This document shows, one piece after another, positions 2,760 through 63,495 of a stretch of 64,000 bases of DNA (within the stretch, counting starts at the first letter, position 1; each line of letters starts with the position of its first letter). The stretch is from NCBI GenBank assembly GCA_964016985.1, contig OZ024827.1, forward strand, positions 114,036,411 to 114,100,410. Direction: 5' to 3'. Below the pieces are notes generated by a model. That model was not told where the DNA came from and searched no databases. It worked only from the letters and a program-made list of their open reading frames with translations. The position numbers and the translations under genes were made by a program. This DNA comes from Anodontia alba (lineage: Eukaryota > Mollusca > Bivalvia > Lucinida > Lucinidae).

Positions 2760-3025
2760 AACATATATTTAATGCGCAACGCACGAAAAGTTCCCCAAGC
2801 TTTTGCGGACAAAGCATGCTTCAGATCAGACTTTATTGTGTGCTTACAAAATCAATGGATACTGTAGTGTATGTCAGCGAACAGAGCTGTATGTATCAGA
2901 TCCTGAGTTCAGCTACTAGCTTTGTTCAGAACAGACTGCACGGTAGACTGGCTCCAGTCTCTAGTGACAAAATATTTTTTTCTTATAATCTGTTTAATAA
3001 TCTACTAAGATAAAACCAAAGTAAT

Positions 3026-3082
3026 ATCATGACTATAAAGGCTGGTCACTAGACTCTAGTGACCAGCCTTAATAGTCATGAT
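3026..3082. repeat. Short perfect-type hairpin, 27-bp arms
   Basis: Left arm 3,026-3,052 and right arm 3,056-3,082 are reverse complements with one mismatch and a 3-base loop. The arms contain 'ggctggtcactag'. It may be the core of a foldback element or a decayed MITE. Nothing else is recognised in 2,760-3,025 or 3,083-3,690. Confidence 0.8.
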
Positions 3083-3692
3083 AGTTTTTTGTTTGTTCTA
3101 TTTAAGTGAATTATCAAACCGAATTATGTGAAAAATATTAGTCATTCGAGACTGGAGTCAGTCTAACTGCACGGAAATGCACGCTCATCTGGACTTTCGT
3201 TATTCGCATATTGCATATATATATTTTAAAGGAAAATGAAAATACAAAAGTTGTCTCCTTTGTAAAAGAAAAACTGGCAGAAAGTCTATCAGGTGTGTAA
3301 AATCCCTTTAAGGGAAATACATACACTTTCAAGGGTGACAACTCTGTCAAAATTGCTTTTACTCCTTTCTACCTTTCTAAAACGGAATGAATTCATAAAG
3401 AAAAGAATTTGCTAAAGAATTTGCTCCATTTAGGGGATTGAGGGAATAGACAACTTTCAAAAGGGGAGTGTGTACAGAAACATAAGATGCCCCACCCATT
3501 TTTTTATCAGCTGAATCAACTCCCCTTGATGTTTTCGATAAGCCGTTTACGCTTTAAGTGTTTTAGTTGCAGCTTTTATGTTGTCTTTTTGAATGAAGCA
3601 TAACATTTTTATTGTGTCTTCCCTTTCTAGTTTATAAACAATCAGACAAAACCTCCCGACAAGGCATATATATAAAATGACGTGAACCCATT

Positions 3693-3785
3693 TATGCCCA
3701 GTGTCCCATAAAAGGGATATTGACAAACAGTGTAGACCCAGATCAGACGCCGCAGAACGATCAGAATTGTTTGTAAAACATGGTT
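3693..3785. repeat. Partial MITE-like 'aaacagtgtagaccc' repeat
   Basis: The string 'aaacagtgtagacccagat' followed by 'cagacgccgcagaacg' matches one arm of the complete palindrome at 56,473-56,537. Here the second arm is decayed ('atcagaattgtttg'). Related diverged copies occur near 18.2, 28.4, 32.84, 33.54, 33.79, 34.27, 35.25 and 35.50 kb. Confidence 0.6.
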
Positions 3786-5150
3786 AACAATAAAAAGTAA
3801 CCAGACACCCCTTATATTGAAAACTGATCGAGGAACTTATGTACATGGTTTAAAAACTACAGGTAGAACGCAATTTTAATGTGCTTAGCAAATCTGACCT
3901 GTGATGACCTTGAGGTCAAGGCTACTGGAATCGTTAGCACCTAGTCTACGACGTATACGGACGCTCTGCACGGAACTTTGCTGTTTAAACCAGCTGTATT
4001 ACTTTTGTTACTTCAAGCAAAATTTAACTGCATAAATCTGTCTTAACACTTTCATCTATGAAGACGAAAACAGACTCGTTACGAGCAGTCTCCTCGGGAT
4101 CTTCACTGTTTGCCATTCTGTTCTGATTTACAACTGTAACACTTTTCGCAGTAATGGAGGTGTCCAAATGCAGAGAGGGGCGATTCTATTTCAGAAACTC
4201 AAGATCAAAACGTTTACCGTGCTTAATAATCAAACTCTTCCCCATTTCCCATATTATATGGTGAAAATTTCCTGACTTAAAATAGCTTTAGATACTTAAC
4301 ATCTCTGAGCTGAATAAATCATACGTGCAAAATGGACAAATGGTATAAGGGAAATAACTGCATTGTCGTTAATCACAGTTACAATGTACGGTTAATCCTC
4401 ATTTGGGTGTAATATATTAGTTTCAGAGGTTAGATATCAGTGCAAGTTCATAATGAATCGTCTGCCAAGCACACAACGTACATGAAATATCAAGTGTTAT
4501 TTTCTCTGAAAAATAGTAATGATAAACGAAATATCGTCTGACACAACTTTCCTTTGCGTCAAAAGCGTTAAAACTAGTCTACTGTTACAGCACGGGTTCT
4601 GTCGCATAGTTGTCGCCTATACAAGGAATAACTCGTGCTAGCACGAGCTATATTATGTAACACATTCTGCCTGTTACCACAGGCCCGTGCATAACGTGTC
4701 ATTTATAAGTACAAGAAAATGACCTGCGCAAGCGCAGGTATATCATAAAAGCCATCGGACTGATTTCAACCTGAAAATATTGAAAGGTCGATAGTTTACT
4801 TTTATTTTATTCGGGTTTAATGTCTCTTTCAACAATCATTCAATCATATCGTGACAGTGTCTGGATGCGACAGCGGTCTCTTTGCTTACTTTTAGAGGGC
4901 TTCCTTGCTGAAATATCATGTCCCGGACGCATGACGTGGTATTTAACTGAAACACATTACAGTGACACCAGGCCGACCAGTTCAGATTCCAAGCAAAAGA
5001 GCAGCTAGTACAATTTTCAACGTCTTTTATACGACTCGACGGGCGATCGAACCCCCATCTCCCCACCCCTGGATGCAAAACGGAGGCTTTAGAAAATGAG
5101 TCGCTGGAACTGTAGGCTCAAAGGTCAGCTGCTTGCTAATTTAGAACGTC
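3786..5150. other. No recognised gene
   Basis: AT-rich sequence with no protein-like ORF. 'gcgatcgaacccc' at about 5,042-5,055 resembles a reversed pol III B box and could be a tRNA-derived remnant, but no matching A box or fold was convincing. Confidence 0.5.
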
Positions 5151-7484: not shown

Positions 7485-8337
7485 CCAAGACAAGCTTCTT
7501 ACATTATATTGGTTACCTAAACTTCATAAAAGACCTTACAAAGCACGGTTTATTGCAAATTCAAGCTCTTCTACCACTACTGAAATTTCTAAATTATTAA
7601 CTTCACGTCTTACTGCCATCAAAAAACATGATTTATTGAATATTAATAATACCTTCGTCGATGGTTTAATCAGTCAATTTTACCCCCTCCTCCCCCCTCC
7701 CCCCCCCGCCCCCCCCCCCCCCCCGAACTTCAGTTAAATAAAGCTAACTCTTCTAATACCGAACCGCGTTTTTGGATTTACATTTATCTATTGTAAATGG
7801 GTTTGTTTCCTGCAAAATTTATGATAAATGCGATGATCTTGATTTTGAGATTGTAAATTTTCCTTTCTTGGATGGAGATGTTCCACGTGCGGCATCCTCC
7901 GGTGTTTATATTTCACAATTAATTCGATTTGCCAGAGTGTCTAGTCATGTAACTGACTTCAATACTCGTAATAAATTGTTAACTGCTAAACTTCTTAATC
8001 AAGGTTATCGGTATCATAAATTACGTAAAGCCTTTTCTAAGTTTTACAGACGTCATTCCGATTTAGTTTCAAAATTCAATGTTGGACTTAAATCTCTTCT
8101 GCAACAAGGCGTATCGGAACCTGAATTTTATGGTGACTTAGTGTATAAATTCAGAAAAATATATGCTTGCAATGACTTCAGTGCCCAATTTCTGAAAATC
8201 ATTCTTCGATATAAAAAGATTGGATACAACAAAAATGTTATACGACAGACTGCATGCATGGTTGTTAACCCAATCACGGTTAAAAACTTTGCTTCCCTCT
8301 TCAATTGCACGCCGGCGGCGGATTAGGCCTCATATTC
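7485..8337 (+). pseudogene. Reverse transcriptase with catalytic core deleted
   Basis: Two RT pieces lie in the same orientation. The first (about 7,500-7,685) reads LYWLPKLHKRPYKARFIANS, then TEISKLLTSRLTAI. This is the N-terminal finger/RT1-like region; the LPK-H motif resembles that of Penelope-like RTs. The second (about 7,725-8,326) reads FLDLHLSI, KIYDKCDD, FPFLDGDVPR, YISQLIRFAR, YRYHKLRKAFSKFYRRH and LLQQGVSEPEFYGDLVYKFR, ending ASLFNCTPAAD with TAG. A C-rich run (7,681-7,725) sits at the junction. The palm with the expected YxDD or FxDD aspartates, which should lie between the pieces, is missing, so no active enzyme can be made. The class (Penelope-like or another non-LTR type) is inference. 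The only long intact frame is 7,772-8,326. Confidence 0.8.
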
Positions 8338-38504: not shown

Positions 38505-40083
38505 CTGAAAGGAAAAAGAAACGCAGGGTAAATGTTATTCCTAAATTTTCATTCAAGTTTGAAAAAGTTTGTTAAATATTTTACTGATTACAAAAAGGTA
38601 CATGTATGGAACAAAAGTTCCAAATTTCATTGGTTTGTGATCAACAAGTCTCGAGTTATTGAAGTTCATTGGTAGCTACCCTCCCCTCCCCCCCCCCCCC
38701 CCCCCCCCCCCCCAAATCTTGAAATAAAAATTAAACTGAAATTCAATATCGGGTGTGCCCCCTCTTGCTGCCGTTGCTGCCCTAATTCTCCTTTGGATAG
38801 AGTTAACCAAAGCATTGACAGTTCGCATCGGGATGTTATTCCATTCATCGATCAACGCATTCCTCAGTTGTGCGAGAGTTGCGGGGGATTTCGGCGCTTC
38901 CTAACCCTTCTGTCCAGCTCATCCCACATGTGCTCTATTGGGGTCAAATCTGGACTGTACGGTTGCCATGCTAGTGGTGCAATGTTATTGTTTGCCAGGA
39001 AATCCTGACAAATTCGGGTAACATGTGGTCGGGCATTGTCCTGCTGCAGAATCAGATTACGTTGTTGCACAAGCGGGACTGCAACAGGACGCAAGATCTC
39101 ATCCTTATACCTTACTGCGGTCATATTGCCCGCAACAATAACTGTGATTTTATCCCGTGAGCAATGCCTCCCCAGACCATAACGGAGCCACCCCCAAACC
39201 GATCCCGTTCGACAACACAGGCGTCGGCAAAGCGTTCTCTGCGACGTCGGTACACACGACGTCGACCATCTGCGCGATAGAGAGTGAATCTAGACTCGTC
39301 CGTAAAAAGAACTCGTCTCCACTGCCTCATCGGAAATAGCCTGGGCGCATGCGCCGTCAACCACGCCATACGACGCAACCTACGTGCCTGGGTCAGAGGC
39401 AGACCAACGTATGTACGACGAGCTCGAAGACCAATCTCACGCAATCGACTTCCAACAGTCTTCGGAGAAATTTGTCGATTATGCGTACCTACTGTATTAA
39501 GGGCAGTTTCGGTAGCAGTGAGATGACGATTCCGCAAATGTGCCAGACGGATTGTCCTGTCTTGACGTCGCGACGTCACGCGTGGAAGCCCAGACCGCGG
39601 TCGGTCTGCTAAATGCCCTGTTGTTGAGACGTTAACCCCAAAATGATTGGCAACTTGCTGTTGCCTCTGACCCTGCATCAGCAACGCAATTGTCCTACCC
39701 CTCTGAACATCAGTCAATCGTACCATGATTGAAAAAAAGTTCAAAGTAGCGTAAAAATGAAAAGAAAAATCGGTAAAAGAATCGAAGAGCGTTGTGTATC
39801 GTAGAAGTGTACCAAATGGTGTGAGGAAATCTTGTGCTGAAGGTTTAAACATGCTTGTTTTGCACGAAATTTTGGCTTTCCGTATTGTCCGTGCAATGCA
39901 CTGTGTAGTGCACGGTTGAATGATTTCACACACTGGGTAGATAGCACATCGACCAAAGACTCGAATACCCGCGGTTCACATTCACAGGACAATCTGTAAA
40001 AGTGTATGGCTATAGTAAACACAGTAAAAAATGGTTAAAATAAGAAGGAAAAAACTCTACCCTGCGTTTCTTTTTCCTTTCAG
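38505..40083 (-). mobile_element. Tc1-type DNA transposon, 1,579 bp
   Basis: The 26-bp terminal inverted repeats 38,505-38,530 and 40,058-40,083 are identical in reverse complement (start 'ctgaaaggaaaaagaaacgc'). They are flanked by TA at 38,503-38,504 and 40,084-40,085, the Tc1/mariner target duplication. The transposase lies on the minus strand (separate entry). A C-run of about 32 bases (38,683-38,714) lies between the gene and the left end. Confidence 0.9.
38750..39726 (-). pseudogene. Tc1-family transposase, frameshifted
   Basis: It would bind the TIRs and carry out cut-and-paste transposition at TA sites. ATG at 39,726 (MVRLTDVQRGRTIALLMQGQ). The helix-turn-helix follows, then LADRPRSGLPRVTSRRQDR. 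The DDE residues are in LFTDESRFTLY (first Asp), LQQDNARPHV (second Asp) and SPDLTPIEHMWDELDRR (Glu), with 'VMVWGGI' between. It is broken: the HTH-to-GRPR region lacks roughly a dozen residues after VNVST; a frameshift near 39,145-39,155 separates GIKSQL from GNMTAVRYKDEIL; a second near 38,887 separates RRNPP from ATLAQLRNALIDEWN. The frame then continues to about 38,750. The leader open to 39,933 has no support. The intact TIRs could still be mobilised by an active relative. Confidence 0.9.
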
Positions 40084-47954: not shown

Positions 47955-48506
47955 TGATATGTCTTTGGCTTAGCCCGCCGTGGTTCAACTATTGGTTTTC
48001 ATTTACTCTGGCATACAGTAGAATTAGCCATGAGTACTCGTCGTTGTTATTATAGTTATATGTTTTCGCTTTGATGCATTGACTGAGTTGGGAGCCTTTA
48101 TGCGAACCGAATTTTTATGTATTTCTGTATTAAGAGTAGCATCGGGACCCAGGGTGAAGCTAGCTAGCTGTAAAAGTGCTTTACCGTAAACCCCCCGGTG
48201 GTTTGATCTACAGACCGTTCTAAGGGGGTGGTCCCGGTGTTAGTCTTACTCTTTGTTGCTTTGTGGTTTATTCTACGAGGCGATTTGTTGTAAGTCTTTC
48301 CGTGTGTCATTTTGTTCTTGTGTTTTTCAGTCCTTTTAGTATTGCGATTATCTCGCTTGGGGAAGGGAGAGCTAATCTTAGTGCTTTTCGTACGTTTGTT
48401 CGGTTTGTGCTTGTTTAGATTTGTCGGTTTCCTCTTCCTCTCGGGGCCTGGGAAGGGCTGCGGTTTGTGATTGTGGCACTCCCTGGACTTTTTTCTTACC
48501 TTTTTT
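47955..48506 (+). mobile_element. Retroelement 3' end, copy E
   Basis: 3' UTR only, from 'gtgatatgtctttggcttag' to TTACC(T)6 at 48,497-48,506. It interrupts 'ttcaaacttg' / 'taaggaagcatcggg' of the surrounding tandem unit, whose intact form reads 'aaacttggtaggaagcatc'. That gives the insertion point directly. Confidence 0.8.
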
Positions 48507-49219
48507 GTAAGGAAGCATCGGGATTTAAAAAAAAATAAAAAATAAAAAAAATTAAAAAAACAGCTAATATCTTTCCGATCAGAAGTCCATGATGGTCGCC
48601 ATCTTAAAAATATTTCTTTTTGCTTACTTTTCTGAATCGAGAGTCCAAATGACTTGAAACTTGGTAGGAAGTATCTGGGTGACTTGTAGATAAAAAATAA
48701 TTAAATCGAAACGATCCAAAATCCCAGCTGACCACCATGGATGCCATCGAGAAAAAAATCGCTTACTATTGAAATGAAAGGCCTATCGACTTCAAATTTG
48801 ATAGGAAGCATCTGGGTTATTTGTACATCAATAATAGCTGAAATAATTCAGATCAGAAATCCAAAATGGCCTCCAATCTTGAAAATCTATTTTTGCTTCT
48901 TTTTCTGAACTTAAGAGGCTTGTTGACTTAAAACTAGGTAGGAATTATCGGGATGACTTGTAGAACAAAAAAAGCTAAAACTGTTCTAATGGGAAATCAT
49001 GGCCGCCATCTTGAAACTCTTTCTCCTGAATCGGAAGGCCAATTGACTTGAAGCTTGGTAGGAAGCATTGGGGATCAAAATGATAAAAAGTGAATAAGCA
49101 CTGCTTATTAGATACCCCCCGCAAGGTAATGGTCGAAATAAATAGCAGCTCTGTTCAGATTATTAAAAAAATTCCATAGCAACAACAACTTATCATTTCA
49201 ACATTCATGCAAAATATAA

Positions 49220-49494
49220 CAAAAAAGGTAAGAGAAAAGTCCAGGGAGTGCCACAATCACAAACCGCAGGCCTTCCCAGACCCCAAGAGGAAGAGGAAAC
49301 CGACAAATCTAAACAAGCACAAACCGAACAAACGTACGAAAAGCACTAAGATTAGCTCTCTCTTCCCCAAGCGAGGTAATCGCAATACTAAAAGGACTGA
49401 AAAACACAAGAACAAAATGACACACGGAAAGACATACAACAAATCGCCTCGTAGAATAAACCACAAAGCAACAAGGAGTAAGACTAATTCTTAA
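49220..49494 (-). mobile_element. Retroelement 3' end, copy F
   Basis: Minus-strand 3' UTR. A-run and 'ggtaagagaaaagtccaggg' at 49,222-49,247; truncated at 'agtaagactaattct', so only about 270 bases remain. The ORFs 49,207-49,494 and antisense 49,257-49,551 are shared with the other copies and are not genes. Confidence 0.8.
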
Positions 49495-50847: not shown

Positions 50848-51395
50848 TGCGAGGGGGGTGTAAATAGCTCAAATCATTTTTATCGGCAATCCAAGATGGC
50901 CACGATAACATCCATCTTGAAAATATAATTTTCGCTTCTACTCCTGTACTCAATTGACTTGAAACTTGGTAGGAAGCATCAAGGTGACATGTAGATTTAA
51001 AAATAACAAAATTTAATTTCGATTTGAATTCCAAGATGGCTGCTATGGCCGCCGTCTTCAAAATCTATTTTTTTTTTTTTTTTTCTTCACAACCGAAAGG
51101 CCAGCTGACTTGAAACGTCATACTTGATAGGAAGCGTGGAGGTGACTTGTAGATCAAAATAACTAAAATTGCTCAGATCAGAAATGCAAGATGGCTGATA
51201 TGACCACCATTTTGAATATCTATTTTCGCCTCTTCTCGAAATTCCAGTTGACTTGAAACTTGTTAGGAAGCATCTGTGCGACTTCTAGATTCAAATTAGC
51301 TTAAATCATTCCAGTTGGAAATCCATGATGGCTGCAAGGGCCATCATCTTGAATATCTATCCTTAACGGAACGGCCATTTGACTAGAAACTTGAT

Positions 51396-51818
51396 AGGAA
51401 AAAAAAAGGTAAGAGAAAAGTCAAGGGAGTGTCACAATCACAAACCGCAGCCCAGCCCTTCCCAGACCCCAAGAGGAAGAGGAAACCGACAAATCTAAAC
51501 AAGCACAAACCGAACAAACGTACGAAAATCACTAAGATTAGCTCTCTCTTCCCCAAGCGAGGTAATCGCAATACTAAAATGACTGAAAAACACAAGAACA
51601 AAATGACACACGGAAAGACATACAACAAATCGCCTCGTAGAATAAACCACAAAGCAACAAAGAGTAAGACTAACACCGGGACCACCGCCTTAGAACGGTC
51701 GGTAGAGCAAACCACCGGGGGGTTTAAAGCACTTTTACAGTCACCGTAAAATTCTGGTTCCGATATACCTTGCTGCAGAAGTGTTTTCAGACTGACGCTA
51801 TATTTTTGGATACAACTT
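51396..51818 (-). mobile_element. Retroelement 3' end, copy G (RT fragment joined to 3' UTR)
   Basis: Minus strand. The 3' terminus is 'aaaaaaaggtaagagaaaag' at 51,400-51,419. The UTR runs to 51,739, where 'cttttacag' passes directly into 51,740-51,818. The latter encodes YSVSLKTLLQQGISEPEFYG on the minus strand, the RT segment that in the 7.7-8.3 kb gene is followed by about 65 more codons and then by several hundred bases of UTR. Those are absent here, so this copy has an internal deletion or template jump. The ORF 51,383-51,922 spans the junction by chance. Confidence 0.8.
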
Positions 51819-51930
51819 CCCGGAAAACTTGTAGATATCAAATTATGGAGTGACGAAGGTAACAGGATACAACCACAGTGACAAAAACAGATACATATAC
51901 GGGACCGGAAAATAAGTATCATGTCCTAGA

Positions 51931-52901
51931 ATGGATCAGTTCAACAGATTGCTAACTCAAACAGTGCAGCAATCAAGACAGTCTTGGATACCAGGCTACA
52001 GACTGGTGGCGACGGCAAAGGAAAGTGCAAGGGCAAGGGCAAGAAAACGTTGAAAGCTCCATCGCAACCTCCAACAGACGCACAACACGTCGGAGAAATC
52101 ATTCCCGAAAACATCGACATTCCCTCAGCAACAGACGCACAACATGACGAAAACACAACCGAAAACAACAACAGTCCCAAACAGTATGCTAAAGTCACCA
52201 GGGCATCAGAGACAAACCGGAGAACTTCATCCGAGAGTGTAATCGCCAATGGCTCGGATGATATACGGCCAGCAGGATAAAACAGGGCTGTAATAAACAG
52301 TGATGAAGAAGACAATGCGTCACCCAAGAAACAGAAGAAAAAGTCCTAATTTCATGAAAGTGGCAAAACAACACAAACTGACTTTGCAAAGAAACTACAA
52401 ACTATGAATCAACAATTGAATGAAAACAACATTTTGGTTTCTCCAGAAGAAACGACAAAACTTTCGAAAGAAAATTCTTATGTAAAAAAACTGAAAACAC
52501 ATATGGCAGCAAGTTTGACAGAAAGTCAGAAGAAATTATCAGGCAAACGATCACAGCATGTAAAGAAGACAGTTTCAAACAGCGTCCGAATAATGAAATA
52601 TTTGGCACCAGGATATAACATTTTAGATTTTACGTGGTCCTGCTTAGCGGACGCTGACAAACTTAAACAATTCTACATTATTCTTGGAGATGTTGGAATG
52701 GCAACAAGGACTATATCAAATTACCAGAAGGCCTTGAATAAGTTGTTTGACGTTGCGTTAGCTGACGTAGACTGCCGACTGACGCAACCGGGAGTGTTTG
52801 CCCACGTAAACGCCATAAGCATTTCTTTTAAAGAACTAAAAAGAGGAATCAATAAAACCATAAATGAACAGACAATGGAAAAAAGGATAACTGAAGCATA
52901 A
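51931..52901 (+). pseudogene. N-terminal region and core-binding domain of the YR-SET protein
   Basis: One frame is continuous from 51,930 to 52,901 apart from TAA codons at 52,278-52,280 and 52,347-52,349; a third TAA at 52,899-52,901 closes it. A possible original start is the ATG at 51,931 (MDQFNRLLTQTVQQSRQS), which lies one frame away and would need a shift near 51,985. The region contains GDGKGKCKGKGKK, a low-complexity part with the duplicated phrase TDAQH, then acidic SDEEDNASPKKQKKKS, which looks like a nuclear localisation signal. From about 52,430 a helical segment (VKKTVSNSVRIMKYLAPGYN, then GMATRTISNYQKALNKLFDV) resembles the N-terminal SAM-like, DNA-embracing domain of tyrosine recombinases. 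Translation from the in-frame ATG at 52,404 would give 165 residues. Confidence 0.65.
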
Positions 52902-52962
52902 ACAGACATTAAAATTTATGAACAAAGGTATATGGACATTTTCAAAAATCTTGATAACGTAA

Positions 52963-54114
52963 GAAAAGGCCGAGCCCATAATAATAAAAGCAAAGGATGG
53001 GCCTGTCAACCTGAGTGACAATGAACTATTCATAGTCAATGGATTTTTTAATCTGTATTCTACTCTAGCGGCGGGGAACAGACCTGGAGTGTTCCAAAAC
53101 ATGGGTTTAAACGTATTTGTAATGGCGGATAACTGTAGGCAGACACGCGACGACGGCTCCACATATTACTTTATGGCCACGGCGACCCATAAAACTGGTG
53201 CAACCGACCTAGCCTTTATATACATAGATGAAAAAGACTGGGAACTGTTTCGAATTTACAAAAATAACATACGGAAAACGCCAATCGAGGGTGATGAGAA
53301 CTATTTGTTTATTAACAAGAATGGTCGACGTATCGGCAATCCCAGTGGAGACATAAAAATCCTCACTCAGCGATATGGAGTGGAGATGACATGTAACGAC
53401 GCTCGACATACGATAGAAGCAATAGGGAAACACTACTGTTCGAAAGAAGAACAAACGATCATTCATCGTATGTTAACCCATTCTGGAGAGGCGGCACAGC
53501 GCCATTATATAGAACCACACTCTGCATCCTTACCTCACAGAAAAGGTATTCCATTGTTGGAGAAACTTCTTCGGCACATATCTGGAAAACACCATGTATC
53601 CATAGCTTCTCCACTCAGTGGTAGCATGGCCCTGACAACCGACACATCCACTGCCAGAGACAACATCGCGGTAGAAGGAGAGTCGTCGGCCGTGGGGACT
53701 GAACACGTCGATGCCCCGCCCAGATCTGTATCTCCGACATCATCTGAGTCATCTTGTGAGAGCGCTGACAAAACGGATCGGTTTAAAATGTTAATGCAAC
53801 GGGCGTTCTCTGGTATGCATGCTGAACTACCACTTCCTGGACACTCGGCTGTTAGAAGCGCGATAAATGAGAATCCGGACTTAAAACTCAAAAATGAAAA
53901 GAAGACGTGGAGCGGATTTGTCGAACATTGTCGTTATCAAAGAATTCTCGCCAGGGCAGAGGAATGCGCCAATCATTACAGAAGGAATAAAGTAAGTGAC
54001 TTCCATACAGCAGCGAATGACCTTGTGCAAATGCGGAGTTGGGCTCCAGAAAAAAGGCTGTTAAAGAATTGTGCACAGAAACTTGAAACTGACAAAAAAT
54101 CAAGAAACTTCTAA
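52963..54114 (+). pseudogene. Tyrosine recombinase catalytic domain
   Basis: The frame opens at 52,963 (one base off the previous block; a shift near the A4 at 52,964) and stops at 54,114. Catalytic positions of the family can be placed. Box I Arg is in AAGNRPGVFQ (codon 53,080-53,082). The beta-hairpin Lys is in ATHKTGATDL (codon 53,191-53,193). Box II Arg is in CNDARHTIEA (53,404-53,406), with Asn where HxxR usually has His. The second His is in MLTHSGEAAQ (53,479-53,481). The nucleophilic Tyr is in AQRHYIEP (53,506-53,508). The spacing fits an integrase-type domain that cuts and rejoins DNA through a 3'-phosphotyrosine. After it comes a Ser/Thr-rich linker (SPTSSESSCESADK) and a helical stretch. 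The GTG at 53,089 is not a credible start; the domain belongs to the upstream frame. Confidence 0.75.
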
Positions 54115-54610
54115 ACGCGGTCAGTCGTGTAAACAACAAAAGATCCCTAAACAAATAAAGGAGCAAAACTGGCCTCTCCTTGAAATTCGCACATGCGCAC
54201 AAATTAACGAGAAAGGTATCTTTGCCGCGGAAGACATTAAGAAAGGAACACTTCTATGCGATTACCACGGAATAATTGTATCAGATAACGAAGGGTGGCG
54301 ACGTTACAAAGAATACGGCGACAATGCAAAGAATGCGTATATGCTCAATTTTACCTCAAATTCTGTGAAAAAAATGTGGATTGACGCCAACAAGCAATGT
54401 AGTTGTCATCCGAAGACGAAACTGAAGGGGCGGTTGATAAACTGTTCAAGAAAAAAGCCGAATGTGATAGCTAGAGCCGAACTGATCGAAGAAAAGGAGG
54501 TTGTTTTAATGTATGCGCGTGATGATATCTCAAAGTACACTGAATTAAAATTTGATTATGGTGTGTACAAAGATCCCCATTCAGTACAGAAAGAATGGAT
54601 GAAATATTAA
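54065..54610 (+). pseudogene. KMT5A-like SET domain, C-terminal part of the YR-SET protein
   Basis: SET domains transfer methyl groups from S-adenosylmethionine to lysines; KMT5A (SETD8) mono-methylates histone H4 Lys20. Visible here: EKGIFAAEDIKKGTLLCDYH (the GxG/I-F-A start), YMLNF, WIDANKQC, KGRLINCSRKKPNVIARAEL (the RLINHS motif with Cys for His, Asn at 54,440-54,442), then YARDDISKYTELKFDYGVY (the ELxxDYG end, Tyr at 54,557-54,559). The order and spacing fit KMT5A rather than SUV39 or trithorax types, and I see no cysteine-rich post-SET. The frame opens at 54,065 and has no ATG before the SET fold, overlapping the recombinase frame by about 50 bases. Shortening the A6 run at 54,094-54,099 by one base would fuse the two, so it is most simply the C-terminus of one protein. 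Activity is uncertain given the NHS-to-NCS change. Confidence 0.75.
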
Positions 54611-54615
54611 CTTCT

Positions 54616-59194: not shown

Positions 59195-62100
59195 CTCTCA
59201 CTTCCACTGTGGTGCAAAACTTCAAACGCAGTACCATAGAAGTACCATACTCTACTTTACTACATCTCAGGTGCTGCTGTGGTGTCCTCCTGTACAGTTA
59301 TTACCGCCGTGATACAGCTCTACTGTATGGCGACTATGACCAAGTATAATATCCCGAGTCTACTACCACCCCGGTAGCCTGAAATGCAACCCCAGTACCT
59401 CTCTATGTTCCGACTGAACAGCTACCACTGTACTGTCACAGTTATAGTCATAAGCTTTCGTTCAGATCTGGAATCATGCGTTCAGCTGTACAGCTACTTC
59501 CAACCCAGTACTGCTGCAGTGCCCTACTGTAGAGCTGTGCCATTATTAGTGCTGAATTGCTCTACTGTACAGCTACCGTCAACCAAGTACCGGTGTAGTG
59601 GCCTACTCTACAGCTACCACCACCACAGTACATCTGTAGTGCCCATCTGTACAGGTACCACTGTCCCAGTAAAGTTTAAAGTTTTAGGGCCCAATTGTAG
59701 AGAATCACTCGCCCAAGTACCTCTGTATTGCCCTACTGTACAGCAACCACCACCTCACTACCGCTGGTCATCCCTACTGTACAGATACCGCAATCCCAGT
59801 ACCGCTGTAGAGCCCCACTGTACATGTAGCGTCACCCCAGTACCTCTATAGTTCCCGACTGTACAGCTACAGGCATTCCAGTACAACTGTAGTGCCCTAC
59901 TGTACAGCTAGTGCTAACCCCGTACCGCTGGAGTGGCCTTCTGTACAGGTTTTGCAACCTAAGTACCACTGCAGTGCCCTGTTTTACAGCTGCCTCCACC
60001 CCAGTATCGCTGTTTTGCCGCTGTAATGTAGTTCTGTACAGCTCTACAACCCCACTACCTCCGAAGTTCCGTGCTGTTTCACCGCCCAAGTACACATTGA
60101 GTGCCCTACTCTACAGATTACGCTGCCCCAGTACCGCTGAAGTACCCTATCGTATAGCAACCAAAACCTCACTTCCGCTGTTCTGCCCTACTGTACAGGT
60201 ACCGCCACCCTAGTACCGCTGTAGAGACCTACTATACAGCTGCTGTTACCCCAGTACATTTCTAGTTCCCGACTGTACAGCTATCGCCCCTCCAGTACCA
60301 CCGTAGTGCACTACTGTTCAGCTAGCGCTATCCCCGTACCGCTGGAGTGGCTGACTGTACAGGTGTCGCAACCGAAGTACTACTGCAGTGCCCTGTTTTA
60401 TAGCTATCGCCTTCCTAGTATCATTGTTAATCCCTAATATTCCGGTACTGCGACCAAAACACCGATGTAGTGTTCTACTGTATATCTGCCGACAACCCAG
60501 TACTGCTGTAGTGCCCTATTGTACAGCTACAGCCACAGTTACTGCTGTATTGCCCTATTTTACATCTACCGCCAACCTAGTACGGTTGTAGTGGCCTACT
60601 GTACAGCTACTGCCAACCCTGTACAGCTGTTTTGCAAATGAATTTCCAACCCAGTGCAGATTTAGTCCCCTACATTACAACTACCGTAAACCCAGTACCA
60701 CTGTAGTCCCTACTCTCAAGCTGTTGCCACTCCACTACCGCTGTAGCGCCTTACTCTACCCTACAGTACAGTTACTGACACCTAGTACTGCTCTAGTGCC
60801 CTACTGTACAGCTACTGCCACGCAAGTACATGTGTAGTCCCTACAGTACAGTTACTTACACCCAGTACGCTGTAGTACCCTACTATACAGCTACTGCCAC
60901 CCAAGTATCTGTAGTGCTCTACAGTAAAGTTATGACACCTAGTACCACTGTAGTGCCCTCATGTAAGTTTACTGCCACCCATGTACAACTGTAGTCCCTA
61001 CATTACAACTACCGCAAACCCAGTACCGCTGTAGTCCATACTCTACAGCTGTTGCCACTCCAGTACCGCTAAAGAGCCATACTCTACAGCTACCGTCACC
61101 CCAGTACCGCTGTCGTGCAGTTCTATACAGCTACTGCGACCCCTCTACCGCTGAGGTTCTCCACAGTTACTGCCGCCCTAGAACTTCCAAACTGTACAGT
61201 TGCTGCCATATCAGTACCGCTGTAGAACCCACTTTACATCTACCGCCAAACTAGTACTACAGTAGTGCCCTTCTGTAAAGCCACTGCCACCATTACTGCT
61301 ATATTGCCCTTCTTTACAGCTATCGCCAACCAAGTACCGCTGTAGGTCCCTACTGTACAGTTATTGCCACCCAAGTACTATTAAACTGTCCTACTGTACA
61401 GCTACCGCCATTCCAGTACCACTGCTGTGCAGTACTGTACAGCAACCGCCACCCGATTACCACAATGCAAAAACACAAAAGCCTACTGTACAGGTACCGC
61501 CATGCAAGTACCGTTGAAATGCCAACAGTACAGTGATTGCCACCACAAGACCACAGCAGTGCTCTACTGTACAGCTACCGCAACACCAGTACCACTGTAG
61601 TGCCCTACTATACTGACATCGGCACCCAGTACTGCTGTAGTGCTTTTCTGTGATCTAACTGCCACTGTACACTGTAGTGCCCTACTGTACAGGTACTGTC
61701 ACCCAAATACAGTTGAACTGCCCTACTGTTTAGTTACTGCCAACCTAGTACTACTGTATTGCACTAATGTACAGCTACAGCTACCTCAGTAGCACTGAAG
61801 TGTCAACTGTACAGGTACCGTTACCCAAATATCGCTGTAGTACCCCACTATACAGCTTAAGCTAGGCCAGTACAACTGTACTGTCACATTTATAGTCAAA
61901 AACTTTTGGCCTACTGTACAGCTACAACCACCCCAGTACCGCTCTAGTGCTCTACTCTACAGCTGCTGCTACTCCGTTATTGTTGTGGAGCCCTACTGTA
62001 CAGAACAGAAGCTGCCTACCCAGTACCGTTGTAGTACCGTACTGGGCAGTTATCATCCCCTCAGTACCTCTGTAATGCCGTACTGTACAGCTACCGTCAC

Positions 62101-63495
62101 TCCAGTACGGTTGTAGTGCCCTACTGTACAGCTGTATTTTTAGAGTAGGGCTCTACAGCAGTATTGGGGTGTCACTAGCTGTACAGTAGGGCAATGACAG
62201 CGGTACTGCGTGGCGGTGGCTGTAGAGTATGGCTCTTCTGTCATCCCAGTAAGGCTGTAGTGCCCTACTGTACAGCTTAAGCAGCCCGGTACCGCTGTAG
62301 TGGCAACTGTACTACCAGTATCCCAGTACCGCTGAAGTGATCTACTGATACAATCTCCCCAGTACCGCTACAGTGCCCTCCTGAACAGCTGCCGTTACCC
62401 AAGTACTGCTGTTGTGCCCTAGTTTTATTCATTACAGTTACTGTCGCCCTAAAACGCCTGTAGTTCCCATATCAGTACCGCTGTAGTACCCCACTTTTCA
62501 CCTGTCGCAAACCTAGTACTGCAATAGTGCCCTACTGTACAGCTACTGTCACAATTACTGCTGTATTGCCCTTCTTTACTGCTACCGCCAACCCTGTACC
62601 TTTGTAGTGCCCTACTGTACAGATACTGCCAACCGTTTTAATGAATTACTGTACAGGAACTGTTACCCAAGTACCGCTGCTGTGCTTAGTGTACAGCTAC
62701 TGATACCCCAGTACTGCTGCCCTCCCTTTCTGCACAACTACAGCAACTCGAATGCCACTAAAGTGTCAACTGTACAGCTACCGATACCCCAAAACCGCTC
62801 TATTGTACCGCTACAGCCCCCAAAGTGCCACTGCACCATAACATTTATAGTCAAAGTTTTCGTCTTTATTGTGAATTAAGCATTCATTTGTACAGCTACA
62901 GACACCCCAGTAGCACTGAAGTGTCAACTTTACAGCTACCGTTACCCAAGTACCGCTGTTGTGCTTAGTGTACAGCTACCGATACCCCAGTACTGCTGCA
63001 CTGCCCTACTGTACAACTATAGCAACAGTGCTACTAAAGTGTCAACTGTACAGCTACCGATACCCTAAAACCGCTCCACTGTACCACTACAGTCTCCAAA
63101 GTGCCACTGCACCATAACATTGATAGTCAAAGTTTTCGCCTTGATTTTGAATTAAGCATTCATTTATACAGATAAAGACACCCCAGTAGCACTGAAGTGT
63201 CAACTGTACAGCTACCATTATCCAAGTACCGATGTAGTGCCCCATTGTACAGCTACATCCACCACAGTACCACTATACTGTCACATTCACAGTCAAAAGC
63301 TTTCGTCCTACTGTACAACTACTAACACCCCGGTACCGCTGTAGTGCCCTACTCTACAGCTGCTACCACTGCAGTACCGATGTAGAACTATACTATACAG
63401 TGCTCAAGTATCGCTGTAGAGCTTTTCTCTGTACGTCAAACCTAGTACTGCTGTAGTACTCTACTGTACACCTACCGCCACCGCAGTACCGCTGG
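59195..63495 (+). repeat. 41-bp satellite array, about 100 copies
   Basis: The consensus unit reads 'cagtaccgctgtagtgccct' then 'actgtacagctaccgccaccc'. Period 41 is exact where measured (starts of 'tgtacag' at 59,901, 59,942 and 59,983). Each unit carries the 8-bp palindrome CTGTACAG. Units are 70-95% similar, with local indels. A block at 62,141-62,233 is inverted. Spacer pieces with 'atagtcataagctttcgttc' (59,444), and 'tatagtcaaa' types at about 61,881, 62,843, 63,122 and 63,288, recur. Frames such as 59,384-59,851 and 59,911-60,213 simply translate the repeat. Confidence 0.95.

Follow-up and report, generated by a model that had tools for sequence, protein, structure and literature searches.

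The terminal 64 kb of a 114,100,410-base contig of the bivalve Anodontia alba (OZ024827.1; this whole 64,000-nucleotide stretch is called the window, and its positions are used below) contain one broken gene, split over three frames at 51957-54607 (+), which ends 9.4 kb short of the contig end. In the reading towards which we lean, it is the decayed remnant of a gene that in its intact relatives joins a likely tyrosine recombinase (YR) to a KMT5A-type SET domain and that would serve a low-copy family of DNA transposons as its transposase gene. As judged from sequence, a chromatin-writing enzyme was likely part of a mobile element.

That the frames belong together is supported by unbroken relatives. 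When the joined window frames served as a protein query, at least 7995 candidates were scored and at least five relatives emerged. P0001 (1043 amino acids (aa), 69% identity to the window copy), P0002 (1042 aa, 48%) and P0003 (1029 aa, 43%) are single unbroken proteins of 1029-1043 aa with the SET domain at the C-terminal end, P0004 is a 529-aa fragment (42%), and P0005 (1223 aa, 26%) stems from the freshwater mussel Sinanodonta woodiana. In the single-frame relatives the order is N-terminus, helical region, YR-like domain, linker and SET. A divergent subfamily is represented in the same genome by a YR-SET frame that runs for 815 aa without a break (locus L048, 3713-6160; C6:113024712-113027156). 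An alignment-based search (P0001 alone returned) and a search with P0003 (known proteins only) added no further relatives; none appeared in two scans of viral contigs, and one scan of genome contigs with a single peptide pattern gave no prokaryotic relatives of the YR part. By these comparisons, the intact relatives of the window gene are one polypeptide of a recombinase-like domain and a KMT5A-type SET domain. Since they read through in single frames, the window frames are taken as one former gene. The preliminary description had supposed as much from a SET frame that lacks an ATG before the SET domain and overlaps the YR frame by 50 bases, both of which we confirmed.

P0001 aligns collinearly with the window at 52119-52967 (56% identity), 52969-54102 (73%) and 54095-54604 (66%), a match that is, by alignment, far beyond chance and that bears out the proposed order and plus-strand orientation of the three frames. 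Its homology begins at 51957 with residue 133 (tblastn: P0001 133-493 matches window 51957-52967, which is 2968-3978 of locus L009, the window copy on contig C7), and no counterpart of residues 1-132 was found anywhere in the 64-kb window. Thus one gene does lie within the extent first proposed, 51825-54615, but homology is confined to 51957-54607. One might object that the break into three frames reflects two unrelated broken genes lying side by side by chance; we give this practically no credence, as it is refuted by the single-frame relatives with the same order and by the joint divergence of YR and SET described below.

The SET domain claimed for the third frame gave a PF00856 match with E 5.5e-14 (motifs at 54215, 54257, 54428 and 54548). 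This profile was present in all six SET segments and above cut-off in P0001-P0004; in P0005 the domain is weak and degenerate (E 0.0062, under the cut-off; motif F-D-K-G). When a six-segment SET profile was compared with the PDB, KMT5A/SET8 chains were found at about 1e-20 (CpSET8 2.2e-20) and the next family, KMT2D, at 4.2e-13. The 16 best PDB fold matches of the P0001 model were SETD8, and the likeness to KMT5A extends into the SET flanks. By profile and fold the domain is closest to the KMT5A (SET8, PR-Set7) family, as had been proposed, and it differs from that family in its fusion to a recombinase-like domain and in an N-H motif changed in five of six sequences. While F-D/N-Y-G, including its tyrosine, is kept in all six, N-H is intact in P0002 alone (N-C in two, N-N in two, T-H in one). 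Consequently, activity of this domain, which is predicted to methylate histone lysine, is uncertain, and this counts against the favoured reading.

Tyrosine recombinases carry R-(K)-R-H-Y in this order, with nine residues from H/W to Y. In the window copy the five codons could be placed, as had been claimed, at 53080 (R), 53191 (K), 53404 (R), 53479 (H) and 53506 (Y). The pentad is invariant across divergent subfamilies with H-x8-Y spacing, so that order and spacing are those of a tyrosine recombinase; the residue three before the second R, usually H, is N in six of seven sequences and T in one. The best 16 Foldseek matches of the YR part, all of them weak, were Cre or Tre chains. Because of the invariant, correctly spaced pentad and these fold matches, the middle domain is likely, from sequence and fold, a tyrosine recombinase.

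Other searches speak against this assignment. PF00589 (Phage_integrase) matched one of seven sequence rows with E 0.0071, under the curated cut-off and near noise, so that of the two profiles suggested earlier only PF00856 was significant. A phrog_1 integrase match in one of seven rows was at noise level (E 0.008), hhalign of the YR part to Cre and lambda Int was negative, no sequence match was found in the PDB, and the C-terminal half had no catalytic-domain match. The top row of VIA-align, which covers listed families only, hits the wrong part of lambda Int. The full-length P0001 model is poor (predicted local distance difference test, pLDDT, 49), and its 50 listed matches are all SET domains, with no YR among them. 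The VIA-align row and the noise-level profiles slightly reduce our confidence in the leading reading. Taken with the negative comparisons and the poor model, they would fit a chromatin factor with a KMT5A-type SET domain whose middle part is another DNA-binding domain and no recombinase. We consider this improbable, because the pentad is invariant with its H-x8-Y spacing in divergent subfamilies and the 16 best Foldseek matches are Cre or Tre.

Upstream of the catalytic domain, the earlier claims hold in part. A helical region lies where a core-binding domain is expected, but its Phage_int_SAM matches (E 0.15 to 0.84) are far under the cut-off and are outscored by an unrelated model in the scan of the window frames. 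The N-terminus does contain the basic stretch PKKQKKK, by eye a possible nuclear localisation signal. In Pfam, neither the window frames nor P0001-P0005 nor L048 matched a transposase family. Matches in NCBIfam were all far below cut-off; one of them, to a model of a bacterial effector in its SET region, probably reflects the common SET domain.

Table 1. Frames and parts of the broken YR-SET gene in the window.
Feature	Position	Strand	Basis or remark
Frame 1	52350-52901	+	open reading frame list
Frame 2	52963-54114	+	open reading frame list
Frame 3 (SET)	54065-54610	+	50-base overlap with frame 2; no ATG before SET domain
N-terminal charged region, likely disordered	51957-52349	+	in-frame stops 52278, 52347; P0001 homology from residue 133
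Basic stretch PKKQKKK, possible nuclear localisation signal (by eye)	52323-52343	+	between in-frame stops 52278 and 52347
Helical region 5' of catalytic domain, core-binding-like by position	52350-52967	+	in-frame stop 52899, frame break near 52963
Tyrosine-recombinase-like catalytic domain	52969-53538	+	pentad; P0001 73% identity across the 52969-54102 frame; Foldseek
Linker, Ser-rich part and conserved part ahead of SET	53539-54094	+	sequence comparison
KMT5A-type SET and flanks	54095-54607	+	PF00856 at 54212-54562; frame break 54095-54114; stop 54608-54610

Both domains seem to have been maintained. Between the window copy and L013, the proportions of synonymous (pS) and nonsynonymous (pN) differences were 0.82 and 0.225 for YR and about 0.85 and 0.33 for SET, pS being saturated in both. 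The ratio of nonsynonymous to synonymous rates (dN/dS) of L048 and L049 was 0.24 for SET and 0.22 for YR, and that of L048 and L050 0.39 for SET, with wrong-frame controls at 0.84 and 1.74. The young pair L015/L016 gave 0.70, and the YR part of the window copy 0.35 with L010 and 0.36 with L012 (9 differences each) and 1.80 with L011 (22 differences). When seven proteins were compared, their distances in YR and in SET correlated at 0.94, a value boosted by two distant members and equalled in 22 of 5040 relabellings, and both trees agree on the pairs P0001 and window, P0003 and P0004, and P0005 and L048. By these comparisons, YR and SET have co-diverged under purifying selection and were thus long kept together, though the window copy is dead.

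The assembly scanned for copies comprises 1.86 Gb in 317 contigs, in which at least 14 stretches matched the YR segment, at least 36 P0002 and at least 64 the L048 frame. Both domains occur in nine of 14 gene loci fetched for inspection (L009 to L015, L048 and L049, the last with its YR and SET parts on opposite strands), or in five lineages after merging duplicates. The remaining five contain one part only: L016 and L054 have YR, L017 and L050 linker and SET (L050 with a YR fragment about 8 kb away), and L051 the N-terminus. Consequently, the expected multi-copy relatives with both domains were found for a majority of the loci; YR and SET are not always in separate loci, nor is the SET part an unlinked host KMT5A gene.

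Loci lie on C4, C6, C7, C13, C16, C19 and C198, and most are broken. Several older paralogue pairs are scattered with unrelated flanks, the exceptions being L013 with L014, L017 and L051. L048 (C6) has broken relatives on C16 and C19, and a cluster of L048-type fragments at C16 52.96-53.32 Mb ends throughout by residue 651, before SET. To this extent the label mobile-element-like given earlier stands. However, several observations argue against mobility. The four close copies, L009-L012, are all found towards the ends of contigs, at a distance of 9 kb (C7), 49 kb (C13), 0.30 Mb (C9) and 0.49 Mb (C12). Independent transposition of these copies was rejected: the 9.9-kb stretches from C7, C9 and C12 align along their full length, flanks included, and that from C13 along most of it, so that the copies are, by alignment, segmental duplications. 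L013/L014 form a 98% segmental pair, L013 and L051 have more than 5 kb of upstream flank in common, and the roughly 1.3 kb that follow the L013 gene recur as a 3' tail at L017. The flank alignment that was to define element ends did not find them: no terminal motif was seen by eye in L013/L017 and L048/L049/L054, no exact 9-mer is common or inverted between two putative L048 ends, and neither a target duplication nor an empty site was found at loci of this genome. Furthermore, exon-like pieces upstream of L048 suggest, by eye, introns.

The duplications near contig ends, L013 with its two partners L014 and L051, the likely introns and the missing ends would, together with purifying selection, suit a domesticated host gene family, in which an old recombinase-SET fusion now serves bivalves as a chromatin protein, while segmental duplication has scattered the broken copies as pseudogenes. 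We regard this as unlikely. All five catalytic residues are kept in the present family, in contrast to the Crypton-derived host genes QRICH1, ZMYM and KIAA1958, in which the catalytic Tyr and the second Arg have been lost (PMC3212892, in excerpt); the loci lie on the contigs listed above, with unrelated flanks in several compared pairs, and most are broken. A transposon is therefore favoured over a host gene family. The flank common to L013 and L051, the tail common to L013 and L017 and the low copy number might also indicate that YR-SET belongs, as one gene among others, to a bigger mobile element of DIRS-like or giant captain-led type. This has a small probability, as no reverse transcriptase or other element gene was recognised by eye in the frames beside the window copy or L048, and L048/L050 are alike for about 120 bases beyond the gene.

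Besides the YR-SET gene, some repeats deserve mention. A repeat of about 270-325 bases occurs at 48187-48508 (-), 49218-49487 (+) and 51399-51726 (+), its copies 90-98% alike by block; the last sits upstream, where the N-terminus of the gene would be expected. Arrays of a unit of about 41 bp (59486-63385) extend toward the contig end; there is no TTAGGG array, and a telomeric repeat was rejected, since no TTAGGGTTAGGG occurs there. By eye, and from a motif of such transposases, frames at 38864-39975 (-) resemble a broken Tc1/mariner transposase, and a common LLQQG-SEPEFYGD stretch at 7757-8326 (+) and within 51383-51925 (-) likely stems from a retroelement protein. Elsewhere in the genome, a like 36-bp minisatellite lies 3' of two distant YR loci, and its orientation with respect to the locus is the same at both (L015 2704-3354, L016 5994-9681). 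A young dispersed repeat with a split SET, likely by an intron, accounts for 16 of 48 genome SET matches, near-equal and on 13 contigs; two of its loci, L055 (C12:28263400-28268400) and L056 (C13:7538400-7543400), share 99% identity across 5 kb. This repeat may represent another mobile element with a SET domain.

How does the YR-SET gene compare to known systems? SETMAR, one primate host gene, joins an N-terminal SET to the Hsmar1 mariner transposase; it likewise links a SET methyltransferase to a DNA-transposition enzyme, yet its transposase is of the DDE type instead of YR, as are HarbingerS and MuDR transposases. In Phytophthora, HarbingerS and MuDR families acquired SET histone methyltransferase genes (PMC12730594, in excerpt), and Helentrons, Rep/helicase rolling-circle elements, carry a SET likened to Clr4 as a separate open reading frame (PMC4067079, in excerpt). 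All three are transposons with a SET domain, which the present family also has; the former two differ by DDE transposases and oomycete hosts, the latter by a separate SET frame and Rep/helicase instead of a YR fusion. Cryptons, DNA transposons with a YR, occur in animals, fungi, oomycetes and a diatom, with Lottia as a mollusc host, and one group carries an extra C48 peptidase (PMC3212892, in excerpt). A single YR-type catalytic gene, the catalytic R, R, H and Y and animal hosts are common to Cryptons and the present family, whereas the C-terminal SET sets the latter apart. Animal Cryptons (CryptonA) have defined ends that lack terminal inverted repeats; for the present family the comparison of copies found no ends. 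Since no protein or row scanned by Pfam matched PF12012 (DUF3504), we call it Crypton-like and not CryptonA. Among the matches listed for titles and abstract beginnings of openly licensed full-text literature, no YR-SET fusion was found, in agreement with the preliminary description; subscription papers, bioRxiv or Repbase may hold one. SET-carrying transposons of other classes are already described.

If the transposon reading is correct, the YR would cut the element out and insert it in the manner of Cryptons, by way of intermediates in which tyrosine is covalently bound to DNA, and the SET domain would methylate a histone lysine, with H4K20 as default guess from the KMT5A resemblance. Because writer and DNA-cutting enzyme are in one chain, it is nucleosomes at the ends of the element or at its targets that would be methylated, which might make integration easier or protect the new copy against silencing. 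More tentatively, and with less confidence than in a transposon as such, one may propose that animals harbour YR DNA transposons of a new superfamily, distinct from Cryptons, which would have kept a KMT5A-type methyltransferase in the recombinase chain since before the deep subfamily split and would mark the DNA that it cuts or enters.

Transposons that bring along enzymes modifying chromatin or DNA allow the contest between mobile elements and silencing to be put to the test. Recombinase and histone methyltransferase in one chain would, if true, be the most direct case, as choosing a site and marking it could then fall to a single enzyme. Nature would thereby also offer a forerunner of recombinases linked to epigenetic writers, as well as a stock of chromatin genes ready to be domesticated.
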